Positions 12,783-13,028 of a stretch of DNA of 64,000 nt are shown piece after piece. Position numbers and translations under genes: made by a program. Position 1 is the first letter of the stretch. Every line of letters starts with the position of its first letter. A model generated the notes under the pieces. The model was not told where the DNA came from. It did no database searches and saw nothing but the letters and a program-made list of their open reading frames with translations. This DNA is from Sinorhizobium fredii USDA 257 (lineage in GTDB: Bacteria > Pseudomonadota > Alphaproteobacteria > Rhizobiales > Rhizobiaceae): the NCBI RefSeq assembly GCF_000265205.3, contig NC_018000.1:4712001-4776000 (forward strand), read 5' to 3'.

Positions 12783-13028
12783 GTTCTCAGGGCGGGGTGA
12801 AATTCCCCACCGGCGGTAGCGGTCGGTGGATCTAACGATCCGACGGTCGAAGCCCGCGAGCGCTTCAGGCACCTACAGCGCCGCGCGTCTGTTTGACGCG
12901 CAAGGGTCGCTGTAGTTTTTGAGTCGCTGCATGATTTCGCCCTTAAAAGGAATCATGCAGTGCCTGAAGGTCAGCAGATCCGGTCGAAGTCCGGAGCCGA
13001 CGGTCACAGTCCGGATGGAAGAGAGCAA
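12783..13028 (+). promoter_or_regulatory. FMN riboswitch (RFN element) with an enlarged variable arm
   Basis: The RFN core is present in order: CAGGGCGGGGTGAAATTCCC and CACCGGCGGTAGC, then AAGCCCGCGAGCG, and on the 3' side GATCCGGTCGAAGTCCGGAG, CCGACGGTCACAGTC and GGATGGAAGAGAGC. It precedes ribH2 and should sense FMN to control lumazine synthase. The variable arm between the two halves is unusually large: a perfect 10-bp stem (CTTCAGGCAC at 12863 with GTGCCTGAAG at 12960) is capped by an 87-nt RIME-like element instead of a short loop. The platform downstream could act on translation; a small ACCCC/GGGGT hairpin lies at about 13038-13052. Confidence 0.93.
12873..12959 (+). repeat. RIME-like palindromic repeat inside the riboswitch arm
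   Basis: The 87-nt insert has two palindromes: CTACAGCG..GCGCGTC / GACGCGC..CGCTGTAG (12873-12915), followed by TTTTT, and TGCATGATT / AATCATGCA (12928-12959). A second copy in opposite orientation lies at 40074-40173, sharing CTACAGCG, CGCGCC/GGCGCG and TGCATGA arms. This two-palindrome layout matches the Rhizobium-specific intergenic mosaic element RIME1. Confidence 0.8.

Follow-up and report, generated by a model that had tools for sequence, protein, structure and literature searches.

How a long palindromic repeat can reside within a conserved ligand-binding RNA is the question raised by the ribH2 leader of Sinorhizobium fredii USDA 257. The window analyzed here is a stretch of 64,000 nucleotides (positions 4,712,001 to 4,776,000 of contig NC_018000.1, assembly GCF_000265205.3), and it carries the FMN riboswitch aptamer of ribH2 at positions 12779-13030 of the forward strand. 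The covariance-model match to RF00050 is full length (model positions 1-138) and scores 88.9 bits against a gathering cut-off of 66.2, with two non-standard pairs at the outer end of P1. Downstream on the same strand, with 90 nt separating the aptamer end from its ATG, lies an intact ribH2 (lumazine synthase) open reading frame of 157 amino acids (13121-13594, +) that shares 97% identity with the frames following this leader in S. shofinae and others; for the S. meliloti homologue, the name ribH2 is used in passages of two papers (PMC2573895, PMC2245857). An arm of 106 nt joins the conserved blocks GCCCGCGAGCG and GGTCAGCAGA in the window, in the position taken by a P4 hairpin of ~20 nt in empty relatives. 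Two further hairpins of this leader, the P3 extension (12819-12850, +) and the post-aptamer hairpin (13029-13065, +), are empty in the window.

A first-pass annotation of the window had described the long arm as a perfect 10-bp stem (12863-12872 with 12960-12969) closed around an 87-nt RIME-like repeat. The perfect complement, its arms 87 nt apart, was confirmed, and the repeat itself stands, but its proposed limits (12873-12959) are off by about 2 nt on each side. Empty P4 arms of close relatives read CTTCAGGC-GAGCC-GCCTGAAG in G002, CTTCAGGC-GAGCC-GTCTGAAG in G021 and CTTCAGGC-GGACC-GCCTGAAG in G019. Because these relatives share the outer 8 bp, and because RIME copies elsewhere mostly extend to ...CATGCAGT, the foreign DNA is best drawn at 12871-12961 (+), in place of the P4 loop and between the two sides of a host-derived 8-bp stem (5' side CTTCAGGC, 12863-12870, +; 3' side GCCTGAAG, 12962-12969, +). 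The loop found in the three relatives is missing from the window arm. On this drawing, the inner 2 bp of the "10-bp stem" would pair an A-C of unclear origin (12871-12872) with the terminal G-T of the repeat, which the predicted fold assigns to the second palindrome and not to the P4 stem. The insert comprises a first palindrome, CTACAGCG...CGCTGTAG (12873-12915, +), and a second, CTGCATGATT...AATCATGCAG (12927-12960, +); at 91 nt, it lacks ~15 nt of the second-palindrome center relative to full-length RIMEs. The whole arm folds at -58.8 kcal/mol (z -8.2), and none of 200 dinucleotide shuffles was as stable.

RIMEs are non-coding elements of ~105 bp built from two palindromes. We take the present repeat to be a RIME on the basis of this anatomy. 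The name goes back to Osteras et al. 1995 (J Bacteriol 177:5485) and stands for Rhizobium-specific intergenic mosaic element. In passages of the S. meliloti literature, RIMEs appear as annotated repeats (PMC2573895, PMC2245857). The insert matches 40 places in its own genome including itself, a floor because only 40 of 91 first-look candidates were scored, and no shuffle out of 100 scored as high against RIMEs, which bears out the annotation's reading of the arm loop as a RIME-type two-palindrome repeat. Thirty own-genome copies, fitted to a consensus of such copies, span 98-109 bp, and the same anatomy (CTACAGCG...CGCTGTAG, a spacer, CTGCATGATT...AATCATGCAGT) is common to 58 aligned rows, which correspond to 57 distinct places in this and related genomes (L219 is the same place as L009). 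A further copy lies within the window at 40071-40173 on the opposite strand, as had been proposed for position 40074, and is 79% identical to the insert over arm positions 10-85. The chance that this is an ordinary long variable P4 arm that merely resembles a RIME is almost nil: long P4 arms without a repeat do exist, such as one of 95 nt in the genome G284, yet the 39 other own-genome matches and the failure of all 100 shuffles to reach the RIME score refute that reading here. RIMEs match in all 33 genomes of the genus sample. First-look candidates range from 56 (G012) to 509 (G005) per genome, and the RIME load thus seems to vary several-fold within the genus. A general strand bias of RIMEs was ruled out by orientations of 12 versus 9 at 21 places between co-directional reading frames (rough frame calls for 32 of 57 places). 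RIMEs are not known to carry a gene, and they would be moved by something else or spread through recombination.

By sequence and by predicted fold, the aptamer core is untouched, as the first-pass annotation had held. All conserved blocks of the leader pattern are present in the window, the score exceeds the Rfam cut-off, and no core mutation of a kind expected to kill the aptamer was found: the letters are those of the relatives except at one variable position of the L5 loop, which is G in the window and T, C or A in the 31 other parsed leaders. When the 87 nt are added to an arm-shortened aptamer, each of its 49 predicted pairs loses at most 0.017 in probability. The mean pair probability is 0.865 without the insert and 0.864 with it, and the 87 nt are expected to share 1.4 pairs with the rest of the aptamer, the repeat being predicted to fold as two hairpins atop P4; these are secondary-structure predictions, which are blind to the tertiary contacts important for FMN binding. 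The other four leaders with RIME material in P4 likewise score over the cut-off (G008 91.1, G027 96.8, G028 104 and G017 105.2). The P4 stem-loop of FMN riboswitches is described, in a passage of PMC3764141, as having neither conserved nucleotides nor contacts to other stem-loops. On these models, the window aptamer should bind FMN as before, and the insert may affect folding speed or RNA stability. We consider it very unlikely that the aptamer is dead or impaired and that the insert is tolerated for want of a working switch. Two other FMN aptamers in the USDA 257 genome and the exceptional G in L5 would fit such a loss; the score of 88.9 bits, the conserved blocks, the unchanged predicted core and an intact ribH2 with its 97% identity to the closest relatives argue against it.

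Comparison of ribH2 leaders within the genus speaks against an arm inherited by all relatives, an alternative that the annotation had itself raised, as 27 of 32 P4 arms are without RIME-like sequence and five have it. In this sample, every one of the 33 genomes has RF00050 (49 matches listed, 48 over the cut-off), and the ribH2 leader was parsed in all except G018, which falls outside the leader pattern. As a control, 96 arms (P3 extension, P4 and post-aptamer hairpin of the 32 leaders) were scored against 32 RIME copies, with 100 shuffles each. Exactly ten arms are set apart, with scores of 19.0-79.0 that no shuffle out of 100 equaled; the other 86 score at most 11.0. Five are P4 arms, those of the window (G000), G008, G017, G027 and G028. 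The insertion is not a one-off, since the P4 loop of G008 holds a more complete RIME at this place and in this orientation, and three other genomes hold parts: a part of the first palindrome in G017 (S. psoraleae, L090) and in G028, and a part of the second in G027 (Ensifer sp. IC3342, L109), the weakest match at 30 nt, 83% identity and a score of 19. The remaining five arms are post-aptamer hairpins of other leaders, with full RIMEs in G011 (S. kostiense, L087) and G030 (a MAG, L089) and RIME parts in G001, G024 (LCM 4579, L105) and G015. All ten match in one orientation, and 22 of the 32 leaders have no RIME in any of the three hairpins. Separately, a full RIME in reverse orientation lies just upstream of the aptamer, and outside it, in S. 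fredii USDA 205 (L083).

Leaders beyond this sample were drawn from 80 named ribH2 loci. Eighteen of these belong to genus genomes and were counted once, which gives 62 further leaders; three of the 80 (L123, L139 and L140) are unreadable after the aptamer, and 59 of the 62 are readable there. Full RIMEs occupy the P3 extension in three of the 62 (Ensifer oleiphilus L091, isolate AFS045263 L092 and E. adhaerens Lc04 L097), and L093 and L098 show the empty form, GCGATC-GAAA-GATCGA. A reversed post-aptamer RIME is present in two of 59, R. oryziradicis L143 and A. terrae L144 of the Allorhizobium group, where the post-aptamer arms measure 149 nt and L149 is an empty relative. No P4 arm among the 62 exceeds 36 nt, and therefore none holds a full RIME. 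In total, 15 of 94 leaders (three of them unread after the aptamer) carry RIME material inside the leader, always in one of the three hairpins, always at the hairpin tip and never in the conserved core. P4 had been called the only tolerant place in this RNA, a claim contradicted by related leaders whose RIMEs occupy the P3 extension or the post-aptamer hairpin.

A wider sample of 394 Rhizobiaceae genomes was searched for P4 arms between anchors, with length limits of 45-105 nt that do not take in the window arm itself. Three matches were returned, of which only the one in G284, from another Rhizobiaceae genus, is an FMN aptamer (L191, 1449-1673; 92 bits). Its 95-nt P4 arm has no other match in its own genome and so does not derive from a dispersed repeat. 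No match came from these genomes when 86-146 nt were required after the aptamer; the sample includes eight of the 33 genus genomes, in which no post-aptamer RIME falls within those lengths, and the 149-nt arms of the Allorhizobium group lie beyond them. Long arms were not visible among the best 150 matches of an RF00050 search of the 394 genomes.

Our preferred reading, to which we assign a probability of roughly 75%, is that RIMEs inserted into the ribH2 leader and were filtered by purifying selection. It builds on the identity and place of the repeat, the intact core, the occupied and empty relatives, and the three hairpins occupied in different clades, each established by sequence comparison or modeling. 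In the window, a RIME would have replaced the P4 loop of the FMN riboswitch. The repeat RNA would fold alone into two hairpins, P4 would become a three-way junction at a distance from the ligand site, and the aptamer would thereby keep FMN binding and, we infer, regulation too. In homologous leaders, the tips of three expendable hairpins would have received RIMEs, namely those of the P3 extension, P4 and the post-aptamer hairpin. RIMEs presumably land widely, with selection keeping those that spare the conserved fold, and most of the P4 cases would represent separate insertions. The retained stem with its missing loop could reflect the mode of insertion, or trimming afterwards, with selection favoring a closed stem.

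The number of insertion events was estimated on three trees. On a tree of ~7 kb around rpoB from 31 genomes (G019 and G030 had no rpoB match), the P4 trait takes four changes, and the starred branches force four. A tree of the leader plus ribH2 (32 leaders) gives four changes for P4 and three for the post-aptamer hairpin, and a tree of 77 named loci, all but L123, L139 and L140, gives two changes each for the P3-extension and post-aptamer traits. Transfer of whole leaders was ruled out as the cause of the scatter, since the leader-plus-ribH2 tree equals the rpoB tree in P4 changes. Judged from these sequences, several separate insertion events are likely, while the single orientation of all ten genus cases would also fit few events.

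The four changes on two trees, together with the lack of any detectable RIME remnant in the 27 empty P4 arms, weigh against a single old P4 insertion in the genus ancestor, followed by many losses and partial deletions, with the present scatter as its decay. We hold that history to be unlikely, though far from negligible. Long palindromes are deletion-prone, G000, G008 and G027 share an orientation and a near-identical junction (...CAGT directly before the 3' stem), and G017 and G028 retain different parts of the repeat from G027. Losses probably do occur, since G020 is empty beside relatives that bear post-aptamer RIMEs, and L100 is empty beside bearers of P3-extension RIMEs. The copies of G000 and G008 can be read both ways. 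They are 80% identical and rank 43 and 34 of 59 in each other's list, and each is closer to RIMEs elsewhere (best matches 88%; 0.88 vs 0.80), which counts against common origin. Nonetheless, 20% is both the usual distance among RIMEs and close to the third-position divergence of ribH2 between these genomes (20.4%; rpoB 16.7%), so shared descent also fits; the RIME divergence does not exceed the neutral divergence, and a variant common to the two copies recurs in only four of 58 other rows. We put the odds that G000 and G008 alone share one insertion event at about even.

Whether hairpins attract RIMEs was assessed from the flanks of 128 copies, 9 of 137 having been removed for near-duplicate flanks. 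The mean flank stem is 3.07 versus 2.96 for re-paired flanks (p 0.14), and 4.07 versus 4.06 at the widest setting (p 0.44). Flank stem scores of at least 8 occur in four of 128 copies versus 0.7 expected (p 0.004; p 0.066 at the widest setting), and smaller sets give p 0.14-0.22 for the own genome and p 0.007-0.15, depending on setting, for 57 copies. General hairpin targeting was thus ruled out by the 128-copy means, and only a rare extreme class exceeds chance. Frequent residence of RIMEs within known RNAs was ruled out as well, as none of 40 RIME loci scanned lies inside another Rfam family; that scan passed over L019 and L021 of the own genome and the genus loci L203, L208-L218 and L220-L222, of which L208, L210, L213 and L214 were covered by a separate scan with nothing there. 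Because flanks are mostly not palindromic and no scanned locus has its RIME inside another Rfam family, hairpin nesting is not the rule for RIMEs. Several copies do sit between long flanking inverted repeats, including L205 (G006:C45:22185-22286, 13 aligned positions), L018, L020, L213 and L293; these sites are perhaps other hairpin loops, maybe terminators.

Other aptamers of the genus provide a further point of reference. The 94 TPP aptamers over the cut-off in the 33 genomes measure 103-117 nt, none of RIME length (aptamers only; an insert that spoiled the match would be missed), and the 16 other FMN aptamers over the cut-off, two of them from G018, measure 147-148 nt with no RIME-length insert. 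Most simply, hairpin tips would be the only RIME sites to survive in a leader that is conserved and transcribed; the TPP contrast hints at something more than tip survival.

A rival reading is an active preference of RIMEs for hairpin loops, or for this leader, for example by a loop-replacing or single-strand mechanism to which selection merely adds. This appears improbable to us. It would explain why the loop is missing and the stem kept in P4 (compared with G002, G019 and G021), in the P3 extension (L091, L092 and L097 compared with L093 and L098) and after the aptamer (L143 and L144 compared with L149), and the four extreme flank cases (L205, L018, L020 and L293) are consistent with it; the unexceptional mean flank stem and the absence of RIMEs from the TPP aptamers of the same genomes speak against it. 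A bolder claim, that RIMEs have landed repeatedly in the ribH2 FMN leader and that the loops of its three expendable hairpins were replaced at the stem boundary in different lineages, seems to us rather unlikely, and we withhold it as a hotspot claim because the events are so few. If true, recurrent landing would point to loop-capturing RIME movement, and the leader would be a natural experiment on the foreign structure load of a riboswitch.

The same observations bear on whether the P4 RIME has been adopted as a working part that tunes ribH2, for example through a folding delay, an RNase site or mRNA stabilization. Both palindromes remain very stable, and ribH2 leaders hold RIMEs where the TPP and other FMN aptamers do not. 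Parts of the repeat have nonetheless been lost in G017, G028 and G027, the window copy is itself shortened, and most parsed leaders do without, which leaves adoption an outside chance.

Foreign palindromic DNA at expendable helix tips is familiar from intervening sequences in bacterial 23S rRNA and from Rickettsia palindromic elements inside RNA genes; those RNAs resemble the present case in this respect, but they are not metabolite sensors. The window copy is like other RIMEs in its two palindromes and its many dispersed relatives in Sinorhizobium and allied genera, and differs from other copies in lying inside a conserved metabolite-sensing RNA. Riboswitches are said, in a passage of PMC2258182, to tolerate long unconserved stem-loops ("variable insertions") at specific sites, and P4, which lacks contacts to other stem-loops, suits that description (PMC2258182, PMC3764141; passages of each); here, however, the insertion can be identified as a dispersed repeat, and among the relatives some arms are empty and others partly emptied. 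The closest parallel that we found comes from the pneumococcal trp leader, in which a BOX element separates two T-box riboswitches that, in the authors' view, still regulate (PMC3049150); a review of prokaryotic MITEs also mentions the case (PMC10969869). There too, riboswitches and a dispersed structured repeat together make up one composite RNA, but the BOX element lies between two aptamers and the RIME inside the arm of one. RIMEs and FMN riboswitches are both of known kinds; a search of open-licence literature found no paper that describes the arm of a riboswitch as holding a RIME or a repeat like it. Dispersed palindromic repeats would offer a concrete source for long unconserved riboswitch arms, with whole, partial and empty stages in close relatives. 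These leaders also supply natural pairs with and without an insert, in which peripheral structure could be tested against ligand binding or co-transcriptional folding, and a rare collection of sites, some occupied and some empty, relevant to RIME movement.

Two other matches in the window deserve mention. A cobalamin riboswitch at 54765-55036 measures 272 nt against a model of 189 positions and has several long extra arms; no RIME match falls there among the own-genome matches listed. A match to the PYLIS_3 family (mttB) at 42247-42346 on the reverse strand scores 54.4 bits against a cut-off of 38 and is perhaps the coding sequence of an mttB-like methyltransferase rather than an RNA element.
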